Source: Nepenthes gracilis
Lineage: Eukaryota > Streptophyta > Magnoliopsida > Caryophyllales > Nepenthaceae
Assembly: GCA_033239525.1 (NCBI GenBank)
Contig: BSYO01000038.1
Span: 5,149,041 to 5,213,040 of the forward strand
Direction: 5' to 3'
Length of the DNA: 64,000 nt
Shown piece after piece: positions 20,266-51,464 of this stretch. The position numbers were made by a program, and so were the translations under genes. The notes under the pieces are model-generated. The model was not told the DNA's origin and ran no database searches. It worked only from the letters and a program-made list of their open reading frames with translations. Numbering within the stretch: the stretch's first letter is position 1; the number at the start of each line of letters is the position of its first letter.

Positions 20266-20270
20266 CAGAG

Positions 20271-22260: not shown

Positions 22261-22261
22261 G

Positions 22262-28407: not shown

Positions 28408-28777
28408 TTATACAGTACTGGACGTTCCTGCATGGATCCTAAATGTCAATGGATCTTTCACGCAGACAGGCAGCAAGGCCGGAGTCGTACTAAGGATCTC
28501 AGATAGGTCGGACATCAAATACTCTGTCACGCTAACCTTCCTGAGCACCAACAACGTGGTGGAATACAAAGCCCATCTCGTGGGGCTCCGGCTGGCTATG
28601 AAATGCTCCATGAAAGAACTAGTGGTGCGCAACGACTTAGAGCTGGTGGTCAACAGTATCGAAGGAGCCTTCGAAGCATCGAACCTGCAGCTCTCTAAAT
28701 ACCCGACAAAGGCAAAATCCCAGATCTAGGTATTTGAGAGCTTCGAAATTAAACACGTCCCGAGAATCGAGATCTAG
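28408..28777 (+). pseudogene. Captured RNase H fragment of a Ty3/gypsy element (copy B)
   Basis: Translation PAWILNVNGSFTQTGSKAGV, then TNNVVEYKAHLVGLRLAMKC and a region matching SDSELVVNQ as NDLELVVNS. This is the second, plant-type RNase H of Tat elements (compare WLLHVDGSSMQSGNGAGVVL in the large element). The first catalytic Asp is Asn and the SDS motif is NDL, so it would be inactive. It replaces about 30 bp of copy A between tttacaatt and aaagccatca. No terminal repeats or target duplication: it looks like filler at a repaired break. Confidence 0.85.
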
Positions 28778-29169
28778 AAAGCCATCAACATCTACTTTTT
28801 AAGCACACATCGCCCTTGTAGAGTTCTAATTTCATTTACATGCATAGACAAAATTAGGCCACCAAGTATAAACAGCAACCCCAACCATCTTTACCAATAT
28901 CCAACTTTTTGAAAGAATGTCATTCCTATATATCCCATCCTCCACTTAAAAAAAAAACAATTAGAATGTCATCACTCCATGTCGTCGTAGCAAAGTGAAG
29001 TCCTTTTCCATCTTTGATTTTTATATGTATGCATATTAGGTGTTTTGAATAATTGAAATCTTACACGTAATACCTGTTGTACATGCTTAAATCTCTTACA
29101 ACACGTAGTACCTGGCATGCTACTATGCAGAAATGATAGTTCTATATTTTCACCCTCTTTGTTTATGTG

Positions 29170-29935
29170 TTCTCACTGTACTACCTACTAACTGCAATGC
29201 TAGCCGAAAAATCCATCATTGTTCTGACTGATTTTAGGGGACAACCTCCAAACCCCTACCTTCACAAAAAGATCCCCAACTCCCATGATTCCCGGGGATT
29301 CATTCCAAAGTCTTGTACACACCATCCTCCATGCTATGAGAGCTCTCAAAGCCCAATTTTGCTACCTCGTTCTCAAGTAGGAGGTCTCCGAAGTCTTGTT
29401 CCTAATAAATTGCATGATTCCTAATAAATTCTCACTGTACCACCTGCTAATTGAAATGCCAGCCGAAAAACCTATCATCGTTGTGACTGATGTTAGGGGA
29501 CAACCTCCAAACCCCTGCCTTCATAAAAAGATCCCCAACACCATGATTCCTGGGAATTCATTCCAAAGTCTTGTACACACCATCCTCCACGCTATGAGAG
29601 CTGTCAAAGCCCAATTTTGCTACCTTGTTCGCAAGTAGGAGCTCTCCGTAGTCTTGTTCCTAATAAATTGCATAAGTTCTCATAAATTCTCACCGGACCA
29701 CCTGTTAACTGAAATGCCAGGCGAAAAACCCATTATTGTTGTGACTGATTTTAAGGGACAACCTCCAAACCCCTTCCTTCACAAAAAGATCGCCAACCCC
29801 CATGGTTCTTGGTGATTAAGTCTTGAACACACCATCCTCAACGCTATGAGAGCTCTCATAGCCCAATTTTGCTACCTTGTTCGCAAGTAGGAGCTCTCCG
29901 AAACCTTTCTCCTAATAAATTGTATGATTCCTAGC
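29170..29935 (+). repeat. Threefold tandem repeat of about 259 bp (copy B)
   Basis: Units start at 29,170, 29,429 and 29,688, each 259 bp apart, with the same MPAEK-type short frames as in copy A. One site differs: the first unit begins with MLAEK. Confidence 0.8.
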
Positions 29936-32139
29936 TCTATCCAGCAGAGTACACCTCTTATCCTCCCCTAGATCCCTGTTCTATCTCTCTAGACATGAGA
30001 GATTTTATCTGGTCTTTGATTGTTTTACGTGTCCACAATTGCCACAAATTCTGAAACTTTTGCTATATAAATTTATGCCCCAACTAAGCTGCCATTGCCC
30101 ATCCCATCTTCGACAAAGATGCTTGGACTTTTGACATCAACCAATGCACAAATAAGAAGTGTTGTTCCCTATACACTTCTTGTATATAGTAATCAAATGA
30201 ATCTCTAAAACCATAATAATAGGCTGCCTAATAACTAGGACAATTTATCTGTCAGAGAATGTAACAATACCTAGTTAGGCACCAAAACTGATATTATTAA
30301 GTCTATCCTATTCAAGGAAATCTTTGTATTTTCTTGCAACTTGGGAAAGAAATTTGGGCTGTCCGATGCCTTTCCCTTGGAATTTTTGAACTTGCTGTTG
30401 ACTTTGTTGTTGAACTTCACTGAGAGTTAGGTTTGGGGGATTCAGAGCTGTTGGTTAGGTAAGACTTTTGGAAATCTAGTAATGGAAGACAAAAGATTAC
30501 TGTGGTTCTATAGGTGAAGCAGAATTTGGACGTGTTGGTGTGAGTGCAACATGAAGGCTATGGTAACAACATGACTAAAGGCAAATAAGGCTGAAGTTGA
30601 CAATGATAATGGTGTTAGTGGGAACAAATAATAATTATGATGGGTAGTGAATGAGGAGGAGGGAGAAAACAAAGGAGGAGACAAGGGTTGTTGTTTTGAT
30701 GTTTTCTCACCTTTCTTGATAGTAATTTTGATTCTATACTTTCTTATTTAGCTAGAACGCATGTTGAATCTGAATGCATTAATGCAAAGTTAGTTTCATA
30801 TATGTGAAAATTTTCCTGCTTTCTATTCATAATGATAGTTGTATATGTGCTTTTTACCTGTGGCTATTCACTGCGTAATAAAATGGCCATTATAATCAAT
30901 ACGGTTTCAATATGGTCTGCATTAGGAGATCAGAGTCTTGTGGGTTATATCACATTAGTAACATACTGTTGTTATATTTGTTTGAGGAACATCAACAGCT
31001 TCTCAATTTTGCCAAAAAAAGAAGAAAAAAAAAACAATAGATTTTAGTATGTCAACTAATATCTTTTTTTATTATCTGTTTTGGAAATTTTTTCAATGGT
31101 AGTAGGGATTGACCCTAAAGGATGTATATATGTATATATATAATAAGAAGTGTATGAGATGTCAATGTAATTTTATCCAGTGAGTCGGAGTCAAATGCTC
31201 ATAGAATTGCATCATACACTTGAAATTTACAAAAACTTTGGAGAGTTCAAGCTTTTGATTTTACAAACTCAACAAACTAAAAATCAGAAAATGATAAGGA
31301 AGTAAGTTATCCCAAGAAGAACCACTTTTGAGGTAAGACCACAAAGAGTGGATTGCACCATACCATAACCGATTAATAAGGAGGTAAGAGATTGTTTAAC
31401 TTACCGCTCCAAATGCCACAGCCCATGTTATGATAGCGTCTGGTTTAACACATATATTGTTGAAGTCAGCATGCTCAAAGCACCAAGTGTAATAACGGGC
31501 GTTATATCTATTTCTATAGCCTCACATACTGAATAAACCATATGAAACTAAGTGGTAGCAAGTGACATGCAAACGTAAAAGTTCTATTAGAAATTGGCTT
31601 TGATATCATGTTAGATTCGGAGATATGAAAGCTGAAATATAATACGCGAAAACATGTGGAAGAGGAGATCCGAAATGATGAATTCATGTCATGAGAACCC
31701 AAACATGATGATTATGATAATTTGAAATCAATTCTTGATGTAGGACACTATTGCCTTTAATGCATTTGTGCTAATGTAAAATTAAAATCTTGATGTTAAG
31801 ATACAAAATACATGTACATGACTAAATAATGAGAAGCAGAGAACATAAAGCTCCTATGCACAAAGTCAATATACGAAAGAATAGAGGAGCAGAAGAGCAG
31901 ATGGAAACAGGTGCTACATATGAACTAAAATATAGAAATGAAGAACACCATGTAAATAATCAACCCAATGGGTGTTAATGTATTTTATTAATTCAGAAAC
32001 TTAATTTATGATCTATGAAATCAACTACTTATTTTTCAGTTGCAGATACAACCATCAGATAAATTTCAACATGGGCTAATCTTAGCCTCACATGAGTAAA
32101 CACAACTATATATTAAATCTAAGAATACATTTGTATATA
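29936..32139. other. Conserved spacer of the duplicated segment (copy B)
   Basis: Collinear with A 16,708-21,465 without the solo LTR, and with C 57,826-60,310 without the LINE tail. No gene supported. It gives the uninterrupted reference for both insertions. Confidence 0.5.
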
Positions 32140-32144
32140 ATACC

Positions 32145-32559
32145 TGACGGGTACAACTGTATATGATTTACTTTTATGGCCCATTAAAGGAGGCCCATTG
32201 AAGAAAGCCCATTGGTTTAGGAGTTATTGCAATTAGCACGTGAAGATGACGGTTATGAGAAACGGTTGTACAACCGGCCAAACCAACAGTAACGGATGAA
32301 ACTGATTATAAGAGAGAAGAACGACCATTACCAGAATGAAAAAATCAGGAAGAGAAGAGAAGAAAAGGCTTATAAAAGGAGAGGACTTTCAGAAAGGAAG
32401 GGGGGCTTTTTTCTTTCAAAAAAGAGAAAGGACAAGCAAATAAAAGAAAAACGTTGTGATGCCTAAATTCAAGACTTCTGTAATTCATTGCATGATTTAT
32501 TCTTTTATGATCTCAGTCATGAATGCTTTTCTTTGGGTCTTGAATCCATAGTCCCATCA
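32145..32559 (+). repeat. 5' LTR
   Basis: TGACGGGTAC...CCATCA. A TATA box (ttataaaagg) at 32,370-32,379 is a likely promoter for the genomic transcript. Upstream are agcccattgg and purine-rich tracts. Confidence 0.95.
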
Positions 32560-32583
32560 TTGGCACTGTCTGTGGAAATTCCG
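32560..32583 (+). other. Primer-binding-site region
   Basis: Directly after the LTR the sequence is ttggcactgtctgtggaa. It resembles the ttggcgccgtctgtggga seen after Tat LTRs, with changes. The tRNA that primes cannot be named with confidence. Confidence 0.6.
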
Positions 32584-32620
32584 AACAAAAAGCCATTTTT
32601 TCCATTCCATTTTCTAAAAA

Positions 32621-34508
32621 ATGGTCAATACAAGATCCCGAACTAATATTCCAACAAGGGATGCTACTACAATCAATAATCCACCTGCTGCTGTCATTCA
32701 AATGGAGAGTCGACAAGAAGAGATGATGCGAACATTTAATACTCGGATGGACAACATGACAGTAGCAATTCACAATCTTTGTGCTCAGTGTAAACCTGCT
32801 AATCCTATCGTCACGCCTGCCGAAGTTGACGAAAAAATGAATCATAAAAGAAAATATACCATCCACGAAGCAGAAATTCAAGAACAAGTGGCTTCGAGTA
32901 ATGCGGGAGGCCGATCTCAACTGGAAGGTCGATCTCAATTGAGAGGCCGATCTCAATTAAGAGGCCGATCTCATTTCGAAGGCAAATCTCAATTAAGAGG
33001 CCGATCTCACCAAGAGGGCCAATCTCGATTGAGAACTCGATCTCAACTAGAGGGACGATTGGGACCTGTCCCAGAAAATCAAAATCAGGATCGTCAAAAT
33101 ACACGATGCTCTCAAAGGGGTGAAAGGCCACGTGATCGTGAAAGTGTTTTTTTCTAACGGGCATATAGGACGAGAAAATTTTCGCCCGATTCGAGAGACA
33201 CAACCCGGTGGAACTAAGAACATATCTCAATGCAAAGAGATCTGCTTTGTTCCTCATATGGAAGAAAAGGTAGAGAAAATTTGGAAACATATGTTTGGAG
33301 GAAACACCGAAGAACGCCCAACGAGTTTGCATGGATCACCATTTACGATGGAAATTCGAACGAGACCACTCCCACATAAATTTAAAATGCCAACTTTGGA
33401 TGCTTATGATGGAAGCACTGATCCTATGGACCATCTGGATCATTTCAGAACCCTTCTGAGTTTCCAAGGACTAGACGAAATGACCATGTGCCAATGTTTT
33501 CCGATAACTCTTAAAGGAGATGCTCGAATCTGGTTCTATCGATTACAGCCAAATTCAATTCAATCGTTTGAAGAATTGGCCGACAATTTTTTGACCCAGT
33601 TCGCTTCCAGCAGAAGAATTGAAAAGCAACCCTGGCATCTCGCCAGGATAAAGCAAGGGTCAAATGAAAGCTTAAAAAGTTTCTTAGTTCGGTTCACTGA
33701 AGAAGCGCGACAAATCCCGCGAATAACTGATGAAGTAAAGTTGAATACTTTTATATCAACGTTGGAGCCAGGAGAATTTTTCAAACACCTAGCACACGGT
33801 GATCCAAAAACCTTTCGTGAAGCAGAAAAGATAACTCGAGCATACATCGCCGCAGAAGAAGCTAATGAAGCAAAAAAGCCATTGTCGCAGGACAACAATC
33901 AGCGAAGACCACCGAATGGAAAGAAAGGAGACAACAACCGTGCTTATTCACAAGAAAGGAAACAATCGAGTACAGGATCTGGATTTGCTAGGGAATTCAA
34001 GCCCTTGAATCTAACTCCCCTGAATGAATCCCGAACGAATATTCTCATGCAAATAAGGGGTGAAAAATTTCTTAAATGGCCCAAGCCACCCAAAAATCCA
34101 GAAGCTGGAGAACAGACAAAGTTTTGTCATTATCATCTTTCACCAGGACATAGTACTGAAGAATGCCGAACCCTGCAGAAGGAGATAGAAGAACTCATCC
34201 GAAGAGGGCATCTAAAGAAATTTCTGAAAGATTCTGAAGGAAATGCTGCTGAAGTAACGGAAGAAAATCAACCACAAGCGCCAAAAAACCGAGTTGCTGC
34301 AGGCGTGGTCAATATGATAACTAGCAAGTCATCAAGAGTACATCAGTCTGATCGGCTTGAGAATGATATGAAAGCCAAAAAATCAAAAAATGAGATTGAA
34401 GACGATATTATTCGTTTTGATAGGGAAGATATGAAGCATGTACAATATCCTCACTCCGATCCTCTTGTTGTATCAATGCTTGTTTCAGATGGTAAAGTTG
34501 ACTACTAA
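32621..34508 (+). pseudogene. gag: gag gene, one frameshift
   Basis: Starts MVNTRSRTN. The N-terminal part has eight hexapeptide repeats of the RSQLRG type (32,911-33,057). The frame changes at a run of seven t at 33,147-33,153, so the first ORF ends at 33,157 and the second (from 33,120) carries on. The retrotransposon gag core spans about 33,390-33,860 (DGSTDPMDHLDHF, GDARIWFYRLQP, ESLKSFLVRFTEEA). A knuckle-like CHYHLSPGHSTEEC lies near 34,130, followed by EIEELIRRGHLKKFL, typical of Tat gag. It ends at a TAA (34,506-34,508) in frame with protease. Gag forms the virus-like particle. Confidence 0.9.
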
Positions 34509-35840
34509 CTGAAACGGATTTTTATAGATAATGGAAGTTCGAGTAATTTGCTTTATTTCGATGCCTTTATTAAATTGGAATTAAAAAGAACCAATTTAAA
34601 AACAGCTGAAGGACCTCTTTATGGATTAGATAATGAACCAGTTCAAGTACAAGGAACCATCCAATTAGAAGTAACTCTGGGAACGTACCCCAGAGTGGCA
34701 TCACGTAAACTATCATTCTTGGTAGTTGATTTACCATCAGTTTACAACACTATATTGGGCCGACCTTGCTTATCAGCCTTTGGAATAGTAACATCCATAC
34801 CTCATTTGAAGATGAAATTCTTAACTTCTTGTGGCATTGGTGAAGTCTTAGGAGATCAAGTAATTGGCCGATCTTGTTATCTTTCCCAAATCAGTCAAAT
34901 AATGCCAGACGAACCAATCGAAGATCTTGATTATCGAGATGAAATTTCCTTACAGCAGGCCCAATCTGGAGAAACAACCGATCAAGTTCTCCTTGACCCT
35001 ACTAATCCAGACAAGTTTACGCTAATAGGGTCTTCCCTCTCTGAGCCGACTCGTGATCGGTTAATAAAATTTCTTCGAGAAAATTCGGATATATTTGCTT
35101 GGTCGCCCGCAGATATGCCAGGAGTCCCAGCTGATATGATGGTACACAAATTAGGTCTGGATCCCAGTCATAAACCGATTAGACAAAAGCGAAGAAATCA
35201 TTCTGTCGAAAAACTAATTGCCATTAGAGAGGAAGTGAAAAAGCTTTTAGACGCTGGTTTTATTCGGGAAGTTCAACATCCAGACTGGCTTTCTAATGTG
35301 GTTCTCGTGAAGAAAAGTAGTGGGAAGTGGCGAATATGTGTAGACTTCACTAATGTGAATAAAGCATGTCCAAAAGACAGTTTTCCACTGTCAAGAATAG
35401 ATTTATTAGTGGATTCAACGTCAGGGCACGAATTGTTGAGTTTTATGGATGCTTACTCAGGATACAATCAGATCCGGATGAGTCATAAAGATGAAAAAAT
35501 TACCTCTTTCATGACAGATCAAGGAACTTACTGTTACAAGGTTATGCCGTTCGGTCTAAAAAACGCTGGGGCCACTTACCAACGGCTCGTAAATAAAATG
35601 TTTGAAGGACAGATCGGCAAAAATATGGAAGTCTATGTTGATGATATGCTTGTTAAAAGCAAAACTGCTGGGGATCATGTGGACGATCTTAACGAAGCAT
35701 TTAAGATACTCCGAAAATATCAAATGAAGTTAAATCCGACCAAATGCGCTTTCGGAATTTCTTCTGGAAAATTTCTTGGCTTCATTGTATCCAGACGAGG
35801 AATCAAGCCAACCACAGAAAAGATAAAAGGCGATTATTGA
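34509..35840 (+). pseudogene. pol: Protease and reverse transcriptase part of pol
   Basis: In frame with gag after one TAA. The aspartic protease active site is IDNGSSSN (Asp at 34,527). RT follows from about 35,150 with FIREVQHPDWLSNVVLVKK, DFTNVNKACPKDSFPL, SFMDAYSGYNQI, MPFGLKNAGATYQ and the catalytic YVDDMLVKS. All main RT residues look intact. The frame ends at 35,838-35,840 because of an extra g at 35,829-35,830, after which the next ORF takes over. The in-frame TAA could be a readthrough signal, but a simple nonsense change is more likely. Confidence 0.9.
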
Positions 35841-35841
35841 A

Positions 35842-37270
35842 ATGAACCCTCCACAAACGGTTAAGGAAGTTCAAAGACTCACAGGAAGGTTAGCATCACT
35901 CTCTCGTTTCCTGTCCAAGTCAGCAGAAAAATATTTACCTTTTTTCAAAGCCTTAAGAGGAATCAAGACCAATGGATTTGTTTGGTCCTCTGATTGTCAA
36001 AAGACTTTTCAAGAATTAAAAGAATATTTATCTAGTCCTCCCTTATTGGCTTCGCCTAAAACGGGAGAAGAATTATTTATGTACCTAGCTGTCTCATCTG
36101 TGGCGATCAGTTCGGTCCTAGTTCGGCAAGAAGTAAATATACAGCAACCGATCTATTATGTAAGCAAAATCATGGCTGACGCAGAAACTTGGTATACGCA
36201 TGCTGAAAAGATTGCTTTGGCCCTTATTTATTCGGCAAGAAAACTGCGTCCTTACTTTCAAGCGCACAAAATCATTTTGCTGACCGATCAGCCTTTAAAA
36301 ATGATTTTGCAAAGGTCGGATATGTCCGGACGACTGGTGAAATGGGCAATTGAACTAAGTGAATTTGATATTGAATATAGACCAAGATCGGTCATAAAAG
36401 GACAAGGATTAGCCGACTTTGTTGTTGAAACTGTGAAGCCGATCCTGAATGTGGCTGAAGAAAATCTTGAAAACCAAACGGAACCGATTTGGTTATTACA
36501 TGTAGATGGATCATCAATGCAATCTGGCAATGGAGCTGGAGTGGTCCTAAAGACTCCCGAAGGAACAGAGATATGTTATTCGCTAAGACTTGCATTCCCA
36601 GCAACTAATAACATTGCAGAATATGAAGCTTTGCTTGCCGGACTTCGATTGGCTAAAGAATGCTCTGCAAAGAATATAATCGTCTACAGTGATTCAGAAT
36701 TGATCGTGAATCAGGTCCAAGGAAATTTTGAGGCCATAAACGCGCCCTTAGCAAATTATCTTGCTAAGGTTAAAAGTATGATGACAAATTTCAACAAAAC
36801 GGAGATAGTTCATATTCCAAGGGAAGACAATGGAAAAGCCGATCATCTAGCAAAAGCTGCTGCAACTGAAAATCCCGAACAGTACTCAAAGATTATGCGT
36901 GAAATTTTATCGACTCCAAGTATCAAAGAAGCCGAACATAAAGTCCTTCATCTAACTGAGGGAGAAAATTGGATATCTTCGTATTGGAAGTACCTCAAGG
37001 AAGGAGTTTTACCAGATAATCCAGAAGATAAAAAACGGATAAAGAAAACCGCCGGATGGTATACTATCATAGATGACAAAATATACAAGAGGGGATACTC
37101 AATTCCATATCTGCGCTGCCTTACTCCAGAGGAAGCCGAGTACGTATTAAGCGAGGTCCACTTAGGGATATGTGGATCCCACGTAGGAGGAAAGAATCTG
37201 GCCTTCAAAATAATACGTCAGGGATATTATTGGCCTACTATTAAGAAGGATGCCATGGAATTCGTTAAAA
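35842..37270 (+). pseudogene. pol: Two RNase H domains and integrase zinc-finger start
   Basis: First the gypsy RNase H (LTGRLASLSRFLSKSAEKYL, QQPIYYVSKIMADAE, LTDQPLKMILQ). Then a second plant or archaeal-type RNase H from about 36,490 (WLLHVDGSS, NNIAEYEALLAGLRLA, YSDSELIVNQVQGNF, IPREDNGKADHLAKAA) with all acidic residues present. The HH part of the integrase zinc finger follows (EVHLGICGSHVGGKNLAFKI). The CxxC pair is out of frame: it can be read at 37,272-37,283 in another phase, so a frameshift lies just before. Two RNase H domains mark the Tat lineage. Confidence 0.9.
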
Positions 37271-38203
37271 ATGCGCGAATTGCGATTCACGGCAACTTGA
37301 CGCATCAACCAATCCACGGAATTGAAATCTTTGCAAGATCCTTGGCCATTTTCACAATGGGGACTCGATATTTTAGGCCCCTTTCCTATGACGACTGGTC
37401 AAAGAAAATTTATAATAATTGGCATCGACTAGTTTACTAAATCGGTAGAAGCTACTCCATTGGCTCGGATAACTGAGCATAACGCTATTGAGTTTGTTAA
37501 ACATAATATTGTCTGCCGGTTTGGAATTCCTGAAAGAATTATTACCGATAATGGAACTCAATTCACAGGGAAACGCTTTACCAGGTATTGCTCCAATTTG
37601 AACATTCGGTTAATTCACACTTCAGTGGCGTACCCCTAGTCGAACGGACAAGTGGAAGTTACCAACAGAATTCTATTACATGGATTAAAGACGAAATTGG
37701 AGGACGCCGGGGGCTCCTGGGCAGACGAACTACCACTAGTTTTGTGGTCATACCGAACAACACCAAAAGAGCCCACAAGGGAAACCCCATTCAGCCTATG
37801 TTTTGGAACAGAAGCAGTCATACCGGTAGAAATCGGGTTACCCAGTCTGAGGATTGAGAATTTTGATCCGACCAATAACAATCAGAAAATCAGAGAGCAA
37901 CTTGATCTTCTCGAGGAAATGAGAGGAACGACGCGAGTTCGCACCGCAGCTTATCAACAACGAATCGCTCGGTATTATAACAAAAGAGTAAAATCACGCC
38001 AGTTTGATGTTGGGGACTTGGTTCTAAGGAGTATTGAAGCAACGGGGAAGATACTTAACAGAAATAAATTGTCTCCCAATTGGGAAGGACCCTTCATTGT
38101 CTCTGCTATTCTACGAAATGGATCTTACAAATTGCGTACTCAAAATGGAAAACTCGTTCCAAGGACATGGAATGCTATTCATTTAAAGAAGTTTTATCAG
38201 TAA
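37271..38203 (+). pseudogene. pol: Integrase core and C-terminus, disrupted
   Basis: The DDE core reads in a third frame from about 37,301 (SQWGLDILGPFP, RIITDNGTQFTG, SNGQVEVTN). Stops lie at 37,430-37,432 and 37,637-37,639, the second two residues before the catalytic Glu region. At least two frameshifts separate it from the upstream frame. The C-terminal part (37,652-38,203) is open: VLWSYRTTPKEPTRETPFSL, then a GPFIVSAILRNGSYKL module, ending LVPRTWNAIHLKKFYQ. The enzyme cannot be made from this copy as read. Confidence 0.9.
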
Positions 38204-38586
38204 GATTTGATCCTGACAGGTACCTTGTAAACTGTAAATTACATGAATATATATATAATGATAATTTTATCAATATTTTCTCGGTTCTTTAAGATTACTG
38301 ATCGGCCTAGATTGCCCCTAAGTCAAATGGCGAAACGCCACTTACTTACAGACCTATCAACGGTCTAAGAAAATTAAAACTCGATTGTATCGAGTGATTT
38401 GGACTACAAAAGTAAGATCCATTAAACCTTGGGGGTTATTCTAACATATGTGTGGCGATTCCTTTATAAAAGGATGAACACATTCAGTCTACTATGGTCA
38501 AAAAGCATCAAGTAATCAAATATAACAAGTATAAGTTTATACATAATACAAAGTTCAGTTAATGTATGACTGCTAAAAACATAAGT
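38204..38586. other. Spacer between pol and the antisense gene
   Basis: Convergent 3' ends of pol (plus) and the antisense gene (minus) face each other here. AT-rich, with an atatatat run near 38,247. It probably holds the 3' end of the antisense transcript; no clear polyadenylation signal was singled out. Confidence 0.5.
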
Positions 38587-40613
38587 CTACATAGAAGAAC
38601 CACCAGACGGATGAGATGAAGATGCTCCTCTATCAGAAAAATCCTTCAAATCAGATCGGCGATGTACGCCCATATTCCTTTGATCGAAAAAATGGACTGG
38701 AAATTGAGGATCGACCAACAAAGCAATCTTTTGGCATAACCGAATGCCTTCTTGAAATCTGGCACTCAAAGCCGATCCAACTTCTTCCGGTTTGAGTCTG
38801 GTCAGCAGTTCAGAATTCAAATAAGCTAACTCTTGTTGGGCCGATCCTAATTCTCTTTGGGAATCAGACAAATTCAAAGTTGTAGATTGAAGCTCATCCT
38901 TCATTTTTTGCAAATCAGACTCAAGAATGATGTTCTGGTTTTTATATTGTTGAGCCTCAGCAACAGCAATCTCCATCTTATTCTTCATCTCTTCTAAAAT
39001 TTTAGGATCCACTTGATTCTAGGACAAGGTTCGAACTTCTCGTTGAAGTTGTCCGATCCAAAGCCTCCGTTGATGAATCCCAATCTTTATAATTTCATTT
39101 AATTTTTCGTCCTAAAAAAAAAAAATTTATTAGTTCGAATTGACAAGATAAGACCGAATCCAGATACCTAAGATTATGCAAATCTAACCTGGATAAAGCG
39201 AGCTTTCAAAGCGATTTCGTTCAGAGACATCCTTGAAACAGGAGTAGTTGGACGATCAGGCTGATTTCCAGGGCTGGGATGCGAAGAAGAAGCAGGAGTG
39301 TTCATCCACTCTGGATGAACTCTATCTTGAACTCCAGTCGGATTGGACACTGGCACCTCAGGAAAACAGATCTACTTTTCAGGACAGGGTGGGTTGACAA
39401 CAGATTGAGTTCGGATTTCGTCCAGATTTGCAGGAAGAATAGGGACATCCTCAGAGGGAACATCATAAGTAGTAATGATTCCTTGAGTCCGATCTTGAAT
39501 ATGGGCCGATCGAGAAGAACCACCGATCGTTAATATATTTGAAGCTTCTTCAATTGTTGGTTCATTACAAATTTCAGAGAGAGAAGGGAGACCGCCAAAT
39601 ATGGCCGCTTCAGACCCATTATTCCTATCCAACATCTGAACATTAGAAGTTGGATCGGTCACTTCCTCAACTCCTTGTGCTGTGGGTGCAGAGACCATCT
39701 GAACATTGGAAGTGGGATCGGTCGGTTCCTCGATTCCTTGTACTGTGGACACAGAAACGCCAGAAGGTAAAACAGTTTTTTCTGTTAATTTATTCATACC
39801 ACTCATTCTCTCTGACAATGGAACGCCGGAATCAGTAGAAGAAGTGGTTGAACTTGACCGAATCATTCGACGTCGAGAGGTTGAACCCATAGACTTTGAT
39901 TGATGAGTTTTTCTTTTACGTTTGGGAGTATAACTGCTCGTTGCCGGAATTGCCAATAAAGGTTCCCATTTAGCCAACGTTAAAATCTCAGGCGACAGAA
40001 GACGTTCTTTGTCAGAGAACAAATTGATATTATCCCTGATTAAATCAGTAAATTGTCGAACTGATTTCTCCTCGTTATCTTCAAGTTTACCCAAAAAAGA
40101 TGACGGAACGTTACCCCATTCACTTGAAAAATTCATATCAAAACTAGCCTTCAAAAAGAAAAACTTATCTTTCCAACCTTTCACCGATTCATGAATAACA
40201 CCACCAATGTTCAATTCGCGGGGCGTCAAAGAAATCCAATCTCCGGATTGACTAAATTTGAAAAGCACCTTCACCGTTGCGATATTTAGAGTAAGCCCAC
40301 GAAGCCGAAAGAAGATACAAAGATTACAAAGGTACCTGATAGCGTTAGCATGGAACCTGGCGATGGGGACTCCTAATTCCATGAAAATCTGGCGCAATTC
40401 CAAAGTGAGAGGAATGCGTAAACCACTAGTCAAATGGGCTTCGTAAATTGAAATATAGCCTTCAGGAGGAGCGCTAGCCCTATCATCCTCGGAGGGAACC
40501 AAAAAAGGTATGTCTTTGCTAATCTTGAATTTTATATATATTGAATCGATGTCAACAGAGGAAAGAACCGATTTAAGAGAATGAACACGAAGAACTTGAA
40601 TGCGAGGAGCCAT
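38587..40613 (-). pseudogene. Antisense additional gene of the Tat element, two exons
   Basis: ATG at 40,613 in good context (cccATGGCT). The first exon runs to 39,189 and the second from 39,111 to 38,587. The intron (39,188-39,112) has a GTTAGA donor and a T-rich TTTTAG acceptor and keeps phase. The N-terminal 200 residues match the gypsy-type antisense domain known as Transposase_28 (PF04195) from memory: APPEGYISIYEAHLTSGLRI, LRQIFMELGVPIARF, FKFSQSGDWISLTPRELN, SVKGWKDKFFFLKASFDM. A Ser/Thr-rich linker with two repeats of VSAPTAQGVEE-type sequence follows, then a coiled coil. In-frame TAGs lie at 39,372-39,374 and 39,019-39,021. Function unknown; antisense ORFs here are known in Tat elements. 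Confidence 0.8.
39112..39188 (-). other. Predicted intron of the antisense gene (77 bp)
   Basis: Donor CAG|GTTAGA, acceptor with 12-13 T before AG|GAC. Splicing joins ARFIQ to DEKLNEI without a frame change. Unspliced reading stops within four codons after the donor. Confidence 0.75.
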
Positions 40614-40860
40614 GGGAAAATTTTGAATGAAGAAAATGGATGAGGAAGAAGAAATTCGAAACGGCAAAGGAAGATAAAGAACCTTGTGGGGATTTCAAAT
40701 TAACATATTTTTTCAAAATCATCATGATTGGCGGCTAACTGACACCTTTGTCATAATGATTCACACGTGTCAAAGCCAGATTAGTTCACCCACTGGAGTA
40801 ATTAATGGTTGTCCCATCTTTCGAAGAGCAAAATAAGAATTTTTAAATGATTTTTCAAAC
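40614..40860. other. Upstream region of the antisense gene
   Basis: Holds the 5' UTR and possibly the promoter of the antisense gene. No clear TATA box on the minus strand. The minisatellite lies directly behind it and could be part of the promoter. Confidence 0.35.
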
Positions 40861-40871
40861 GCAAACTGGTT

Positions 40872-41357
40872 GAAGACCGATTTCGATCCAGATCGGCAAT
40901 CATTTGAAAAGCCGGTTTCAAGCGTAAGCAGGCTGAAGACCGATTTCGATCCAGATCGGCAATCATTTGAAAAGCCGGATTCAAGCGTAAGCAGGCTGAA
41001 GACCGATTTCGATCCAGATCGGCAATTATTTGAAAAGCCGATTTCGACCGTAAGAAGGCTGAAGGCCGATTCCGATCCAGATCGGCAATCATTTGAAAAG
41101 CTGGTTTCAAACGTAAGTAGGCTAAAAACCGATTTCGATCCAGATCGGCAAAAGCCGGTTTCAAGCGTAAGCAGGCTAGAAACCGATTTCGATTCAGATC
41201 GGCAAAAGCCGGTTTCAAGCGTAAGCAGGCTAGAAACCGATTTCGATTCAGATTGGCAATAATTTGAAAAGTCTGTTTCAGGGGAAGCATGTTGAAAGCC
41301 GATTTCAATCCAGATCGGTAAAAACGTTTTCAAAGGCAAGCTGGCTGAAAGTCGATC
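40872..41357. repeat. 63-bp minisatellite in the hypervariable 3' region
   Basis: Eight to nine units start after ggct at about 40,872, 40,935, 40,998, 41,061, 41,124, 41,178, 41,232, 41,294 and 41,347. The first steps are 63 bp and the next two are 54 bp (the same 9-bp loss), all multiples of three. The core is cgatttcgatccagatcggc. Because the period is a multiple of three, frames stay open on both strands; these are not taken as genes. Tandem repeats in the 3' untranslated part are a known feature of Tat elements. Confidence 0.95.
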
Positions 41358-41463
41358 TAGAATTACAATTGGTTGATGACAGATTTAAAATCGAATCAGC
41401 AGAAGAACTCGAATGACCCTATCAGAAAGGACATATCGCCAGGTTAAGAATTCTAACCTGTCG

Positions 41464-41477
41464 ACATGGGGGACTAG
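41464..41477 (+). other. Polypurine tract
   Basis: acatgggggactag directly before the 3' LTR, the expected place for the plus-strand primer. Confidence 0.8.
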
Positions 41478-41892
41478 TGACGGGTACAACTGTATATGAT
41501 TTACTTTTATGGCCCATTAAAGGAGGCCCATTGAAGAAAGCCCATTGGTTTAGGAGTTATTGCAATTAGCACGTGAAGATGACGGTTATGAGAAACGGTT
41601 GTGCAACCGACCAAACCAACAGTAACGGATGAAACTGATTATAAGGGAGAAGAACGGCCATTACCAGAATGAAAAAATCAGGAAGAGAAGAGAAGAAAAT
41701 GCTTATAAAAGGAGAGGACTTTCAGAAAGGAAGGGGGGCTTTTTTCTTTCAAAAAAGAGAAAGGACAAGCAAATAAAAGAAAAACGTTGTGATGCCTAAA
41801 TTCAAGACTTCTGTAATTCATTGCATGATTTATTCTTTTATGATCTCAGTAATGAATGCTTTTCTTTGGGTCTTGAATCCATAGTCGCATCA
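41478..41892 (+). repeat. 3' LTR
   Basis: 415 bp, same ends as the 5' LTR and no indels. About seven substitutions by eye (four A/G transitions, three transversions). Confidence 0.95.
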
Positions 41893-42239
41893 ATACCGAA
41901 ACAATAAGAACACAAATTGTGTTTCTTCTTGTAATTGACTAGTGTGCAGTGGTAATCAACCAATCAAATACAATTGATCCGAGGCATAACAACTTCACCC
42001 AATCAATTAAGTTGTTATGCTTTCCCTGGATGTGTTTACTGTCAATAATAACATTACAAAATTCAATAACTTATACTTTGATAAACTGCTCTCATTGAAG
42101 CTGCTGCGACAAAACTACTACACGACATCAACTTATATTGTTGTGATAAACTGTCCCGGTGATGATAGTGAATTCTCTACTAACTTGCCTAACTAATCTG
42201 CACTGATTTTTAGATGCGCAGATAAATACGTGATATATA

Positions 42240-42690
42240 TTTGCTGAATTAACAAAGCTGATAAAATTGAGCACATGAGCAACACCAACAGACATGCCTC
42301 TGTTGTATTGATAATGAACTCAGTGAAGCTAAAATTGCTGATTCACGTGGAAGCCAAATGCTGCCCTTGCTCTGTGCATAACTACAGCATGATGTTGCCC
42401 AGGGATTATTCTACCAAGTAGATAACCATCAAGACTCTTCCACAGAGTTTTCCCATTCACAACTAACCCCTTCAACAGCAGATCACATGAAATGAAAAAC
42501 AAGTAATACATTCCAGTCTTTGTGATATAAAATACGATATCCTACATTTATGACGATAAAGTACTCCACCGAAATATATGTTAATAACAATAGGCCACTT
42601 AGCATCATTTGATGCTGGTATTGAAATGACATCTCCTTGCAAGCTTTGTCCACCATATGCAGAGCCACCTATATCAAGATTATGCAACCC
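42240..42690 (-). pseudogene. Coding-like exon block of the duplicated gene (copy B, first half of local duplication)
   Basis: Same pieces as in copy A: GGSAYGGQSLQGDVISIPAS then KWPIVINIYFGGV (42,570-42,670), and LKGLVVNGKTLWKSLDGYLL then GQHHAVVMHRARAAFGFHVN (42,335-42,475). Here the first piece is open where A has a stop, but the acceptor before LKGL is lost (ctgctg instead of ctgcag). The two copies are therefore broken in different places. Family unknown. Confidence 0.45.
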
Positions 42691-43900
42691 TAATGTGCAA
42701 AACCTTTATTTTAATTATGGGTAGAAATCCTAGAAAATATTTTGTCATCTTTTCACTAAAGACATATATATGGTAAATTAGTATTAAAGCCTAACAACTA
42801 AAATTAAAACTTACAACATATAAAATAACATATAATTTAATGAGTATTAGCATAAACGCAATTTTTCAATAGTCTCATTGATATTTCATTATCTTTTCAG
42901 CTGTATTTTCTCCGTTATTTTTTCTCCAATGTGCCTTTAGATCTCATGTTATTTTCCCTGCACGTAAAATCACTGTCATTAGAAAAAAATTTTGTAAAAC
43001 ACATTGTTTCACATGCAAAATTGTAACACCTGTTAAAAGCCTAAACTCTAAACTTATCCGCGGAGACCAAGACTAAAAGGTAAACCCTAAAACCTGACCA
43101 ATAACCCAAAGAACTTAAAAACTAAGATTAACAGTACAGCACCATTTAAGATAACGTCTTGATAACCATCAAGACTCTTACACAAAGTTTTCCCATTCAC
43201 AACTAACCCCTTCAACTGCAGATCACATGAAATGAAAAACAAGTAATACATTCCAGTCTTTGTGATATAAAATACGATATCCTACATTTATGACGATAAA
43301 GTACTCCACCGAAATATATGTTAATAACAATGGGCCACTTAGCATCATTTGATGCTGGTATTCAAATGACATCTCCTTGCAAGCTTTGTCCACCATATGC
43401 AAAGCCACCTATATCAAGATAATGCAACCCTAATGAGCAAAACCTTTATTTTAATTGTGAGTAGAAATCCTAGAGAATATTTGGTCATCTTTTCACTAAA
43501 GACAGATATATGGTACATCAGTATTAAAGCCTAACAACTAAAATTAAAGTTTTCAACATATAAAATAACATATAATTTAATGAGTATTAGCATAAATGCA
43601 ATTTTTCAATAGTCTCATTGATATTTTATTATCTTTTCAGCTGTATTTTCTCCGTTATTTTTCCTCCGATGTGCATTTAGATCTCACGATTATTTTCCCT
43701 GCACGTAAAATCACTGTAATTAGAAAATGATTTTGTAAAACACATTATTTCACTTGCAAAATTGTAACATCTGTTAAAAGCCTAAACTCTAAACCTATCC
43801 GCGGAGACCAAGACTAAAAGGTAAACCCTAATACCTGACCAATAACCCAAAGAACTTAAAAACTAAGATTAACAGTACAGCACCATTTAAGATAACGTCA
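42424..43900. repeat. Local 740-bp tandem duplication in copy B, chimeric
   Basis: The sequence gataaccatcaagactctt restarts at 43,163 after a first copy at about 42,422. The junction falls near 43,158. The first half carries copy C-type bases (ccacagag, aggccactt, gcagagcc). The second carries copy A-type bases (acacaaag, gggccactt, gcaaagcc). An acceptor ctgcag is intact in the second half. This is what unequal exchange between two paralogues would leave. Confidence 0.8.
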
Positions 43901-46900
43901 GTACCAATTCAAAAGTTACTATACGTACCTTGACAGTTTGACAAATATTTTACGTGCAAATAAAAATTTAAGTAGAGTGTACTCCTGTTACCATCACCTT
44001 CAAATAAGAAATTAACATGCTATAATACCAAATATTTGATATACATACCTTCTTTCATAGAGAAGTCGACACATTTCCTCAAGAATTTCACCACCAAATC
44101 CAAGTAAGCAATGTGCATGTATGCTCGTCTCTGCATAGCCTTCTAGAACCATTCATCTACCAAATCCATGTTCACATCCTGCAAACGAGGTTAGTACCCC
44201 AAAGTTTAGAACTAATGTCAATATAAATTTAAAATTACACAAAGAAATACACAAGTATTGAAAATTGCAAATATCAAGAGTATGTTACCTTGATGAGCCA
44301 TACCCTCATATTAATTGTGAGCACAAATATTGATTTATACATCGCTACCTTTTCACTAAAGGAGGATGCATACTACATCAGTATTAGAATCTAACAAATA
44401 AAAACATAATTTCTAACCACACATAAGATAATATAAATCTACTAAGTACTCACACAAAGGCAATTTTTCAATAGTCATTTTGACATTTCATTAGCTTTTC
44501 AACTACATTTCCTCCTTTATTTCTTCTCCCAAGTGCCTTCAAATCCCATGATTATGTCTCCTGCATGTTAGAACACTGTAATGTGAGAACTATTTTGTAA
44601 AACATATTAATTCACAAGCAAAATTACAACATTTATCGAAAGCCTAAACTCTAAGCCTGTCCGCGGAGACCTAGACTAAACCTTAAAGCCTAACACCCGA
44701 CCACTAATCCTAAGAACTAGGAAACTAAGGGTAACAATAAAACACCGTTTGAGATAAAGTCTGTATGAATTTAAAAGTTGCTAATATTAAAAAAAACGTA
44801 CCTTGATAATTTGATAAATATTTGTGTAAATAAAAATTGACGTAGGGTGAACCCCTTTCGTTAATCTTATCTGTAAATTAGAAATTAACATGCTATAATA
44901 CCAAATATTTGATATACATACCTACTTACGGGGAGAACACGACACCTTTCTTCAAGAATTTCATCGCCAACTCCAAATAAGCGTTATGTGTGTATCGTTA
45001 TATCTGCATATAATGTTTGAAAATAAAGTCACTATTCGTCAAATTTCATATTAAAGTCCTAAGCGAGCTCTAAAGATTGAAATTATAAATGACAATTTAC
45101 CTTTATTTTATTTTAGCGTTATTTTCAAGATAGCCGTTTTATCCTTTCTTTTAAGGTGGAGAACAATGTGCCTGCAAGCCCACCATTAAAGAATATCATT
45201 TAAAACTTATGAATAGATTTTCATAAAGCCGAAAAATTTTTCAAAAACCAACATCCATCCTTACATCACCTAAATTTTCACCCTTAAATAATGTCTCGAC
45301 TCCTTCCTTTTCCTCTTCTACGACCTTCTGAATATCGTTCCTTGGAAGGAACTTTATGTTCTTAACGGTGGACAAGAAAATAAATATTGATATATTCAAT
45401 AAAAACATAGAAAACATACATATATTTCCTAAATCAATTTATGAGCCTTTTAGAACCATTCATCCACTAAATCCACATTCACAACCTGCAAACGGGGTTA
45501 GTACCTAGAGTTTAGAACTGATGACAATGCTAAATTTAAAATTACACATAAATATACAAATATTGAAAATTACAAATATTAATAATAAGCAACGTTTATA
45601 CCTTGACGAGCCACACCTTTGCATTAATTGTGAGTGCAAATATTGGATGGTACTTCGTCATCTTTTCACCAGAAGATGATGCATGTTCATTAGTATTAGA
45701 GGCTAACAAATAAAAATATGATTTACAACCACACATAAGATAAGATAAATCTAATAAGTACTCACACAAATGCAATTTTTTAATAGCTTCATTAACATTT
45801 CATCGTCTTTCAGCTGCATTTTCTTCGTTATTTCTCCTCCAATGTGCCTTCAGATCCCAAGATATTATTTCTCCTGCATGTCAAAACAATGTAATGTGAG
45901 AACGACTTTGTAAAACATATTATTTCACGTGCAAAATTGTAACCCTTGTCGAAAGCATAGACTCTAAGCCTATCCGCGGAGACCTAGACCAAGCCTTAAA
46001 CCCTAACACCTTACCCATAACCCTAAGAACTAGAAAACTAATAATAATAGTGCAGCACCGTTTGAAATAAGATCTGTATAAATTTAAAAGTTGCTGGTAT
46101 CGAAAATACGTACCTCGATAATTTAACGAATATTCTATGTGCAAATAAAAATGCACGTAGAATGCACCTATTTTGTTAACATTACCTGCAAATTAGAAAT
46201 TAATATACTATAAAGCAAATATTTGATATGCATACCTACTTTCGGGACGAACTCGACACCTTTCTTCAAGAATTTTGCCGCTAAATCCAAGTAATCAATA
46301 TGTGTATATCCTAATATCTGCATGTAATATTTAAAAATAATATCACTATTTCGCAAATTTTATACTAAAGTCCTAAAGTCCTAAGCGAGCCCTGAAGATT
46401 GTAGTTGTGAAGGACAATTTACCTTTCTTTTATTTCAGTATCATTTTCGAGATAGTCGCTCTATCCTTTCTCTAATGCGGATAACAATGTTCCTGCAGGC
46501 CCACCATTAAAGACATCACTTAAAATGATATGAATAATTTTCGTAAGGCTGAAAAATTTTTCAAAAACCAAATACATTCTCACATTTCCAAGATTTTCTT
46601 ACAGAATTTTCACCGCTAAATAATGTCTCGACTCCTTCCTTTTCCTCTTCTACGACCTTCTGAATATCGTCTCCTAAAAAATTCCTTATGTTGTCAATAA
46701 TGGACGAGAACATAAATATTGACATATTCAATAACAAAATACAACACATACATATATTTTCTTAATCAATTTGCGAGCCTTTTAGAACCATTCATCTACC
46801 AAATCCCCATTCACATCCTGCAAACGGAGTTAGTACCCAGAGTTAAAAACCAACGATAATGCTAAATTGAAAATTACATATAAGAATATGCAAGGATTGC

Positions 46901-49900
46901 AAATATCATGAATATGCTACTTTAATGAGCCACACATTTGTATTAATTGTGAGTACAAATATTGGATGGTACTTTGTCATCTTTTCACTAAAGGAGGATG
47001 CATACTACAGCAGTATTAGAGCATAATAATTAAAAATGTGATTTACAGCTACATATAAAATAACATAAATCTAAAAAGTACTCACATAAAGACAGTTTTT
47101 TAATAACCTCTTTGACATTTCATCGTGGTTTCAACTGTATTTCCTCTATTATTTCTCCTTCAATGTAGCCTCAGCTCCCATGATTATTTCTCCTGTATGT
47201 TAGATCACCGTAATTTTAGAACGATTTTGAAAAACATATTATTTCATATGCAAAATCATAACATTTCTCGAAAGCCTAGACCCTAAACCTATCGCGGAGA
47301 CCTAGATTAAAACTTAAACCCTAACAATTGAGCCGTGACACTAAGAACTAGAAAATTAAGAATAATAGCACAGTATCATTTGAGATAAGGTCAGTATGAA
47401 TTTAAAAGTAGCGAGTATTAAAAATACATACCTCGATAATTTGACAAATATTCTATATGCAAATAAAAATTCATGTAGAGTGCACCCCTTCTATTAACGT
47501 TACCTGTAAATTAGAAATAAACAAGCCATAGTACCGAATATTGGATATAATACCTACTTTCGGAGAGAACTCGATAACTTTCGTCATTAATTTGACCGCC
47601 AAATCCAAGTAAGCAATATGCATGTATCCTTATATCTACATGTAATGTTTGAAAATAATGTCACTATTTCGTCAAATTTTATAAAAAATCCTAAGCGAGC
47701 GCTGAAAGTTGCAGTTATAAAGGACAATTTACCTTTCTTTCATTTCAGTATCATTTTCGAGATAGCCGCTCTATCATTTCTCTAAGGCGGAGAACAATGT
47801 GCCTACAAGCCCACCATTAAAGACATATCATTAAAAACAATATGAATAGATTTTCGTAAAATCAGATAATTTTTCAATAACCAAATACATTCTCACATGT
47901 CCTAAATTTTCTTATAGAGTTTCCACCCTTAAATAATGTCTTAACTTCTTCATTTTTCACTTTTACGACCTTATGAATGTCGTCCCCTAGAAGATACTTT
48001 ATGTTGTTAACAATGGAAAAGAAAATAAATATTAATATATTCAACAACAAAATACAGCACATACGTATATTTCCTAAATCAATTTGTGAGCCTTAGAGAA
48101 CGCTTCATCCACCAAATTCACATTCACATCTTGCAAACAGGGTTAGTACCCAATGTTTAGAACTAATAGCAATGCTAAATTTAAAATCACACATAGGAAT
48201 GTACAAGTATTGAAAGTCGAAAATAACAAGAATATGCTATCTTGATGAGCCACAGCTTTATATTAATTGTGAGTACAAATATTGGATGATACTTCATCAT
48301 CCTTTCACTAAAGGAGGATGCATACTATATCAGTATTACCCCCTAACAAATAAAAAAGTGATTTACAACCACACATAAAATAACATCAATCAAATAAGTA
48401 CTCACACAAAGGTAATTTTTTAATAGCTTCATTGGCATTTCATCATCTTTCCAGCTGCATTTCCTCCGTTATTTCTCCTCACATGTGCCTTCAAATCCCA
48501 TGATTATTTCTCCTACATGTCGGAACACTGTAATGTGAGAACGATTTCGTAAAATATATTATTTCACATGTAAAATTGTAACCATTGTAGAAAGCCTAAA
48601 CTCTAAACCTGTCCGCGGAGACCTAGACTAAAACTTAAACACTAACACCTTACCTGTAACCTTAAGAACTAGAAAACTAAGAGTAACAGTGTAACACCGT
48701 TTGAGATATAGTTAGTATGAATTTAAAAGTTGCTAGTATAAAAAATACGCACCTCGATAATTTGACAAATATTCTATGTGCAAATAAAAATTTATGTAGA
48801 GTGCACCACTTTTGTTAACTTTACCTGCAAATTAGAAACTAATATGCTATAAAGCAAATATTTGATATGCATACCTACTTTCGGAGAAAACTCGACACAT
48901 TTCTTCAGGAATTTTATCGCCACATCCAAGTAAGCAATATGCATGTATCATTATATCTGCATATAATATTTGAAAATTATGTCACTATTTCGTAAATTTT
49001 ATACTAAAGTCCTAGGTAAGCTCTAAAGGTTGCAGTTATAAAGGACAACTTACATTTATTTTATTTCAGAATTATTTTCGAGATAGCCGTTCTATCCACT
49101 CTCTAAGGCGGAGAACAATGTACCTGCAAACCCATAAAGACATATTATTTAAAATCATATAAATAGATTTTCGTAAGGCCGAAAAATTTTTTAAAAACAA
49201 AATACATTCACACATATCCTAGATTTTCTTACAGAATTTTCACCTTTAAATAATGTCTCGACTCCTTCCTTTTCCTCTTCTACAACCTTATAAATGTCGT
49301 CCCCTGGAAGATACTTTATGTTGTTAACAGTGGATGAGAAAATAAATATTAATATATTCAATAACAAAATACAGCACATATATATATTTTCTAAATCAAT
49401 TTGCGAGCCTTCTAGAACCATTCATCCACCAAATCCACATTCAAATCCTACAAACGGAGTTAGTACCCAGAGTGTAGAACTAATGATAATGTTAAATTTA
49501 AAATTACATATCAGAATATATAAGTATTGAAAGTTACAAATATCAAGAGTATGCTACCCTGATGAGCCATACATTTGTATTAATTGTAAGTGCAAACATT
49601 GGATGGTACTTCGCCATCTTTTTACTAGGGAAGGATGCATATATCAGTATTAGAGCCTAACATATAAAAAAGTGATTTACAACCACATGTAAAATAACAT
49701 AAATTTAATAAATACTCACATGAAGGCAATTTTTTAATAGGCTCCTCGACATTACATCATCATTTCAGCTGTATTTCCTCTATTATTTCTCCTTCAATGT
49801 TGCTTCAGATCTCATAATTATTTCTCCTGCATGTTAGATCACCATAATTTTAGAACGATTCCGAAAAACATATTATTTCATATGCAAAATCGTAACCTTT

Positions 49901-50390
49901 TTCGAAAGCCTAGACTCTAAACCTATCCGCGGAGACCTAGATTGAAACTTAAACTCTAACAATTGAACCGTGACACTAAGAACTAGAAAAATAAGAGTAA
50001 TAGCATAGCACCATATGAGTTACGGTCTATATGAATTTAAAAGTTGCGAGTATTAAAAATATGTACCTCAATAGTTTGATAAATATTCTATGTGCAAAAA
50101 AAAATTCACGTAGAGTGCACCCCTTCTGTTAACGTCACCTGAAAATTAGAAATAAACATGATATAATAACAAATATTTGATATACATACCTCCTTTCGGA
50201 GAGAATTCAACACCTTTCTTTAGAAACTTCACCGCCAAATCCAAGCAAGCAATATGCGCGTATCCTTATATCTGCATGTAACGTTTGAAAATAATGTCAC
50301 CATTTCGTCAAATTTTATACTAAAGTACTATGAAGTTCTGAAGGTTGCAATTATAAATGATAATTAACCTTTCTTTCAACTCAATATTAA
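43901..50390 (-). repeat. Tandem array of 0.86-1.32-kb units (copy B)
   Basis: Unit markers at about 43,775, 44,639, 45,952, 47,272, 48,591 and 49,903 give spacings of 864, 1,313, 1,320, 1,319 and 1,312 bp. The minus strand of each long unit has the same exon-like pieces; an example is 50,190-50,272, reading GYAHIACLDLAVKFLKKGVE with an AG before and GTATGT after. Others are the DIQKVVEEEKEGVETLF piece (for example about 46,610-46,680) and the (M)YKSIFVLTINMRVWLIK piece (about 44,290-44,345). Some pieces have stops in all units, so exon limits are uncertain. No protein family recognised; a long non-coding transcript is also possible. Confidence 0.7.
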
Positions 50391-51464
50391 CACTAAAGAA
50401 GGTTATTCAGGAAAAAATATTAACTTGAAACACAAATGCTGAAATGGATGAAATTCAAGTCATACTTTTCTGAAAATGAAATGAAATTTTAAAAATTCTT
50501 ACAACTCGCAAAGTACTAAAAATTTTAGACCTAAAATGACCATAATATGTGTCTCGACAAAAGCACACGAAAGGCAATTCATGTTTATTGCCTGAAGGAG
50601 AGGACAAAAGTCGTATGAGTGAAATGGAGTCGCGAGCAACGTTTCTGATAGCAAATTCATGCTAATTCATAGAATAAAAAAATCAAAGATATTTACAATA
50701 TTTATTTATTTAATAATATTATTAATTTGAATTTGTTCAATTCTATTACCTGTCCTAGAAATCAAACCGGCGAAATTTTTTTTACGCAACAAAATATTGA
50801 ATCGAAATTTCAATAAATGAACAAAAATTTAAAAAAATGAAATTAAAATTAAAAGTGCTAACCTAGCAGAGGTAGCCATAATTTAAGGCCGAAACCCGGC
50901 CCCAGGAAAGGAGTAGGAAGTTATTTAAACGGAAAAAAATCGTTCAGTGGAAATGACCATGAAGACACCAGCGGCAGGATGGCATCAAAAGCAACGGACA
51001 GTTTTTGAGAGCCAAACTTCTGAACCCATTTTCCAAGTTATTAAATGTGGCTTCAAGGATGGAGATTGCTTTGAGTCATCCAATGAACATCATCCATTGC
51101 TTTCCCCCACCCACACAGTTTTTGAGATTTGATGGTTTAGACCTCCTTTTTAATTACTATCTAACAGTCGATGTCGTATTCACTTCTCTTTACTCAGGCA
51201 CGAATCCTAATCCCTCCACGTTCAAATTTACCTTAGTTTTCACTTTTTCTAAGACAAGAATCGGAAAGAAGGATGAGCAATTCGAACAATGGCAAGCAGC
51301 TATCAAAGGATGATTTAGTTACTTTTCATGCCAATATTGTCAATTTCTTATAAGAACGAAATTTAAAGAATTTTGTTTGAAGACCAAATATCTGAAACCA
51401 GGCCAACAAAATTGAAACAAACAAAACGTAAAATTTATAGAAACAAAAAATACCAATGACTAAC
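50391..51464. other. Spacer or intron region 5' of array B
   Basis: Unique in the window. A small exon-like piece on the minus strand (50,863-50,879) starts ATGGCTACC and ends at a GTTAGC donor, so it is a second candidate for a gene start. The ORFs on the plus strand at 50,947-51,313 have no domain. Confidence 0.35.

Follow-up and report, generated by a model that had tools for sequence, protein, structure and literature searches.

The window examined here, a stretch of 64,000 nucleotides, raises the question of whether open frames lying antisense to and downstream of the pol region of a retrotransposon are exons of one spliced protein-coding gene and, if so, how such an element could keep an intron. 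The host element is a 9.7-kb Ty3/Gypsy LTR retrotransposon, Retand-like, in Nepenthes gracilis (32145-41892). It is bounded by a 5' LTR of 415 bp with TG...CA ends (32145-32559, plus strand) and a 3' LTR (41478-41892, plus strand) that differs from it at 7 of 415 positions (98.3% identity; K2P 0.017), placing the insertion at about 0.66-1.2 My under assumed rates of 1.3e-8 to 7e-9. A 5-bp target-site duplication, ATACC, flanks the element (left 32140-32144, right 41893-41897), and two paralogous blocks of the flanks show the matching empty site (around 60306-60311 and 21468-21474).

The plus strand carries a gag ORF (33051-34508; PF03732, E 2.6e-15), a reverse transcriptase frame (34509-35840; PF00078), a frame broken at both ends that holds RNase H, a second RNase H (RVT_3, located where Tat elements have the aRH) and the integrase zinc finger (35827-37440), and the last open stretch of pol (37640-38203). 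These Pfam domains are spread over several frames, so gag-pol is broken in the window copy. Gag, RT, RH and INT stand in the Ty3/Gypsy order, with the integrase recognised by its zinc-binding domain alone (PF17921, E 3.2e-5; 24.4 bits, slightly below the Pfam cut-off of 25.5). In the Pfam coordinates RVT_3 (226-345) falls between RT_RNaseH (81-180) and Integrase_H2C2 (435-482), and an additional RNase H between RH and INT is described as an Ogre/Retand trait in PMC6317226. The region between pol and the 3' LTR is long (38204 to 41477, 3274 bp; 2.9-6.6 kb is the Tat/Retand range) and contains an antisense ORF. Together, domain order and antisense ORF fit an assignment to Retand, and the LTR (415 bp), the internal region (8918 bp) and the pol-3'LTR region all lie inside the Retand ranges given in PMC11963269.

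The surroundings are themselves repetitive. The element sits inside one unit of a large tandem or segmental array (20266-27611; 27661-32144 with 41892-50449; 55453-64000) whose units contain inner repeats of about 1.3 kb each. Two array units hold ORFs (28346-28729 and 56138-56518) that by eye resemble remnants of Tat-type RNase H, and two more ORFs, again judged by eye, recall a FAR1/MULE-type protein (5749-7652) and the remnant of a LINE-type reverse transcriptase (11853-13532). Within the element, a 63-bp minisatellite (40791-41168) separates the antisense gene from the 3' LTR. When the internal region (32560-41477) is set against the flanks, the hexamer GATCGG/CCGATC is found 15 times in gag-pol (2.5 expected), nine times in the antisense gene (1.1 expected) and seven times in the minisatellite region (0.45 expected), while it is nearly missing outside, with two occurrences in about 42 kb of flanks (12000-32144 and 41893-64000) and none in the 5' LTR. 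The excess may reflect a binding motif or merely base composition.

On the minus strand, the antisense gene begins at an ATG at 40613 and ends at 38587. Exon 1 (39189-40613) comprises 475 codons from the ATG to a phase 0 end, the intron (39112-39188) is 77 nt long, of the spliceosomal GT-AG type and in phase 0, and exon 2 (38587-39111) adds 174 codons and a TAG. With the slash marking the exon boundary, the donor reads AG/GTTAGA; the intron's 3' end is T(12)AG, and in a branch-point-like CTAAT (39129-39133, minus strand) the A stands 18 nt ahead of that end. The first-pass annotation had proposed a two-exon antisense gene with this intron and exactly two in-frame stops; coordinates, intron length and phase were all confirmed, and so was the number of stops. 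One stop interrupts exon 1 (39372-39374) and the other exon 2 (39019-39021). Among other aligned loci, 0 of 53 have a stop at the first position and 1 of 52 at the second. Both the genome and the deposited proteins include copies that are open at these positions. The window copy is a pseudogene that broke after insertion, and the recent decay suggested from its two stops agrees with the few LTR differences.

Two further details of the proposal held in part. The gene does run opposite to pol in orientation, but it does not overlap it; the pol frame ends at 38203 and the gene sits downstream, so an overlapping arrangement was rejected. The start codon, described as lying in good context, has the favourable G at +4 but a C at -3; the ATG is retained in 49 of 54 aligned loci. 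Upstream of it by 156 nt lies a G-box, CACGTG (40764-40769, minus strand), a candidate element of an antisense promoter, and CACGTG occurs 139-165 nt before the ATG in 16 of the 29 loci with at least 400 nt of upstream sequence.

Related copies were collected by searching the host genome (752.5 Mb) with exon 1, which returned at least 122 matches at 43-100% identity, some copies being in pieces; 101 of 15998 candidates were scored. The comparison set consists of 84 loci, among which three pairs occupy the same place and one, L009, is the window itself. Protein pieces allowed the junction to be placed in 55 of the 84 loci, and a second script, applied to 21 of the remaining 29 (L001-L008 were left out), placed it in 13 more (group B). 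Intron site and phase 0 are identical in all 68 placed loci, and the identical exon end and exon start appear again in families that are only about 48% identical. In L006 and L007, members of decayed families whose exon 1 is about 36-39% identical, inspection by eye shows an exon-2-like region preceded by a U-rich stretch with AG at its end; as an instance of the same junction this is suggestive only. A further copy (C11:15923689-15923721) has the textbook donor CAG/GTAAGT at the same site.

Deposited protein models give a second view of the junction. Nepgr_004190 (P0001) is what locus L011 encodes once its 79-nt intron is cut out precisely at the junction, the residues agreeing at 170 of 170 positions before it and 99 of 99 after it. 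It is the only one of five deposited models reaching the junction that splices; P0003-P0006 run into the intron and stop, two of them at loci with GC donors and two with GT. These N. gracilis entries, deposited as 'hypothetical proteins', are pieces of a retrotransposon gene (P0001 at L011, P0005 at L015, P0004 at L023, P0003 at L024 and P0006 at L035). Three protein searches that need shared exact words, the last limited to 7995 candidates, gave 1, 0 and at least 6 proteins, one of them common, all from N. gracilis, with no relative outside Nepenthes among the matches listed; a search of viral contigs found no relatives of exon 1 or A1.

The sequence between the exons has the properties of a spliceosomal intron, namely GT/GC...AG ends, a branch point, a polypyrimidine tract and a conserved site and phase. 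Across the 68 loci its length ranges from 58 to 91 nt (60-91 in the set of 55, 58-91 in group B), with GT or GC as donor in 56 and AG as acceptor in 63. The other 12 loci have a different dinucleotide at the placed donor, though L055 and L070 among them look like one-base misplacements, and five loci lack AG at the acceptor. In the set of 55 the donors are GT (22), GC (23), AC (4) and TT, AT, TC, TA, CA and GA (one each), and the acceptor is AG in 50; group B has GT in 11 and AG in 13 of its 13 loci. The motif CTNAY, for which shuffling predicts 15.8 occurrences among the 55 loci, is present in 49 of them, and the last 20 nt of the intron are pyrimidine at a median of 70%. All 23 GC introns begin with GCAAG, which in 15 cases follows CAG. 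A midpoint-rooted FastTree built from both exons puts the GC donors in a clade in which 23 of 32 loci have GC and one has GT, while in the sister clade GT is present in 21 of 23; members of the GC-AG clade include L019, L023-L028, L030, L033 and others. The GT of group B suggests that this is the older donor state.

Whether the exons on either side encode protein was approached through dN/dS (Nei-Gojobori, reference-anchored codons, stops skipped), with 22 window-like loci including the window (group A) compared with the 33 others (group G). Changes that accumulated once the copies had inserted are part of these values, so that constraint is expected to have been stronger while the elements were active, and no P value is given since locus pairs share history and are not independent. 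Between A and G the median dN/dS is 0.16 for the exon 1 domain (residues 1-275; 726 of 726 pairs), 0.12 for exon 2 (718 of 726 pairs) and 0.38 for the linker, against 0.98 and 1.52 (domain), 0.96 and 1.27 (exon 2) and 0.85 and 0.84 (linker) in the shifted frames. For domain, linker and exon 2 in turn, the values are 0.29, 0.52 and 0.29 inside A and 0.23, 0.47 and 0.20 inside G. In group B, anchored on a locus of its own, the domain stands at 0.19, the linker at 0.52 and the two parts of exon 2 at 0.25 and 0.24, the shifted frames of these reaching 1.05 and 1.23, 0.78 and 0.84, and 0.60-1.42, respectively. In comparisons with more diverged loci, third codon positions are the most different in both exons. 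Multiples of three are not in excess among exon indels, at 84 of 306 distinct events for exon 1 and 17 of 125 for exon 2 (intron, 21 of 71), so this test lends coding no support, although indels are about five times rarer per base in the exons, with about 0.6 per 100 nt per locus versus 3.0 in the intron. As judged from these codon comparisons, both exons are under purifying selection in the spliced frame and under none in the shifted frames, beyond what chance would give, which bears out the selection anticipated for them by the first-pass annotation.

A rival reading sees two separate antisense genes, one a TRP28 ORF that runs on for a few codons of the 'intron', the other a coiled-coil ORF of its own, which is how a survey made ORF by ORF would list them. 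The four deposited models that end just inside the intron would be read naturally in this way, as would the many copies whose exon 1 frame stays open only a few codons beyond the donor, where a single ORF would end, and an ATG at exon 2 codon 8 is available in 14 of 55 loci. Against this, exon 2 is constrained from its beginning, with a pooled dN/dS of 0.10 across codons 1-40, while in 32 of 55 loci an in-frame ATG is missing both ahead of and within this stretch, so an independent exon 2 start was rejected as a general rule. The pooled value is 0.40 over the last 20 codons of exon 1 and 0.64 just beyond the exon 2 stop; reading on through the intron gives 0.67 and 0.87 in the frames of the two exons. 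Furthermore, the GT/GC, the AG and the branch-point motif are retained while the other intron sequence drifts, and an identical exon end and start appear again in strongly diverged families. Two separate genes are therefore improbable. With the first codons of exon 2 constrained and so often lacking an ATG, splicing is the simplest explanation.

A second alternative leaves the transcript in place and denies a role to its product. The antisense RNA itself would matter, through dsRNA or siRNA control of the element, and the coding appearance would be residual. A regulatory role of antisense RNA has been proposed in PMC7264820, and the window copy is indeed a pseudogene; however, the strong codon-level constraint in both exons, missing from the shifted frames, is hard to reconcile with a residue, and we give this reading little credence. 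A programmed frameshift or readthrough instead of splicing would suit two ORFs close together on one strand. The spacer, however, belongs to all three length classes (mod-3 classes 1, 0 and 2 in 25, 20 and 10 of 55 loci), so no fixed shift would work; since intron lengths include post-insertion changes this spread is weaker evidence than is apparent, though all three classes are present also among loci with a stop-free exon 1 match. The spacer carries intron-like signals, no single conserved frame relation is seen, and frameshifting was rejected on the length classes as very improbable. Chance ORFs with a chance GT-AG pair in a decayed element, a reading to which the two stops of the window copy and the 738 GT..AG pairs (60-200 nt) in the region lend some colour, seven pairs leaving at most two internal stops and two of those seven leaving one, fewer than the 77-nt intron does, were rejected on dN/dS in the spliced versus the shifted frames and are extremely improbable, as the site is conserved across 68 loci and both of the separately anchored groups have dN/dS well under 1.

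Splicing of a coding gene is thus, with high confidence, the reading to be retained, and the locus very probably represents one antisense protein-coding gene of two exons in the pol-3'LTR region. Comparison among the copies establishes, at the level of sequence, its layout as a first exon with a TRP28-related domain, a basic cluster and a fast-evolving linker, a phase-0 intron, and a second exon with a putative coiled coil and a conserved C-terminal part; by the same comparison, selection maintained the gene while the families multiplied.

The domain of exon 1 had been called PF04195-like. No direct match bears this out, as a Pfam scan of the window protein gave none for PF04195 even at E<=10, and PF04195 is not among the families listed for 10 members of A1; the relation emerges through intermediates. 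At least five genomic PF04195 matches exceed the cut-off, and each of the five listed can be aligned with one and the same stretch of exon 1 (36-39% identity, E 1e-15 to 1e-29), a link made at the level of sequence. Through these intermediates the exon 1 domain is related, by sequence similarity, to TRP28 (PF04195); the corresponding stretch in the window is 40299-40448 (minus strand, about residues 56-105). Further along, a basic cluster (39861-39926, minus strand, about residues 230-251) is a candidate nuclear localisation signal. The AlphaFold model of exon 1 is poor (mean pLDDT 39), so DNA binding draws no support from it.

For exon 2 the proposed coiled coil was borne out in both respects looked for, a long helix and a heptad hydrophobic repeat. 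The long helices (38713-39006, minus strand) are predicted by a single-sequence model of the exon 2 ORF at residues 5-74 and 77-102, with block-mean pLDDT of 87-98 over 5-74. Over that first helix, a/d hydrophobicity in the heptads is 0.80, a value reached by 0 of 5000 shuffles, its halves being matched by 11 and 134 of 5000. Eight weak PDB matches (E 0.019-0.84) fall on BAP31, tektin, BICD-like and a designed protein, all of them coiled coils.

From these features the following course of events may be envisaged. Transcription would start from a promoter that belongs to the gene itself and lies within the element, in the interval separating the 3' LTR from the ATG, and the antisense mRNA would be spliced. 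The full-length genomic RNA would be the opposite strand, without splice sites there, so that reverse transcription would leave the intron in and it would persist through repeated copying. The spliced junction of the window's family has no genomic match (33 bases, up to 3 mismatches), while its unspliced donor junction has 24 (33 positions, partly degenerate); this lack of spliced-out copies fits a genomic RNA of the strand on which the intron is no intron. This suggests that a retroelement can keep an intron by carrying it on the strand which retrotransposition does not use as template. The protein would most likely enter the nucleus, dimerise via the exon 2 coil and act on element nucleic acid, regulating transcription or integration. 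It is perhaps a nuclear, dimerising regulator; that it is a DNA-binding one is a tentative proposal, held with less than even confidence.

Antisense ORFs are a hallmark of Retand. A conserved antisense intron alters the predicted protein and may unite two ORFs that have been held separate. It also provides a clean marker, since any spliced read would prove antisense mRNA rather than genomic RNA, making the transcription of Retand antisense genes directly testable in stranded RNA data. More speculatively, and with doubt prevailing, the antisense gene of Retand elements at large, beyond Nepenthes as well, might be one spliced gene, with TRP28 in the first exon and a 'Smc'-like coil in the last, an intron protected from loss as it is spliced only from the non-genomic strand, and a dimeric nuclear regulator of the element as product, an analogue of HBZ in plants. 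On this reading the GC-donor clade may splice its message less efficiently, which would set the dose.

HBZ of HTLV-1 is a spliced bZIP gene product that ends in a dimerising coil. It is set beside the present gene because both are encoded antisense within an integrated retroelement and the product is nuclear, in the present case putatively so; this is an analogy only, with no sequence relation claimed. The nuclear localisation of HBZ is mentioned in PMC11963269. The same study (Vicient, 2025) reports antisense ORFs in all Retand clusters shown, with TRP28 (Transposase_28, PF04195) in 97% and 11 Smc antisense domains, and these TRP28 ORFs occupy the same place between pol and the 3' LTR as the window gene and share a related domain. 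They were obtained with ORF Finder, and the word 'intron' is absent from the main text of PMC11963269, whereas in the window what is probably one gene has its TRP28-related part in the first exon and its coiled-coil part in the second. In the literature found (titles and abstract openings, with PMC11963269 and PMC7264820), no intron in a Retand antisense gene is described, and TRP28 and "Smc" ORFs are listed separately. Within that literature, antisense TRP28 ORFs in Retand are already known.

Other systems share single features with this one. Gene23 of maize Grande (Gomez-Orte 2013) is a related known system, compared here through PMC7264820 alone; that paper cites nuclear localisation of the Grande protein and calls for the examination of antisense and spliced transcripts. 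An antisense homing-endonuclease gene with a 47-nt spliceosomal intron, located in a group I intron (PMC9548176), is likewise an antisense gene of a mobile element with a short intron, but element, host and protein are unrelated. Ogre and EVADE, as described in PMC12786077 and PMC6317226, are cases of functional introns inside plant LTR retrotransposons; those introns lie in the sense RNA and govern gag/pol expression, whereas the intron of the window gene lies on the antisense strand.
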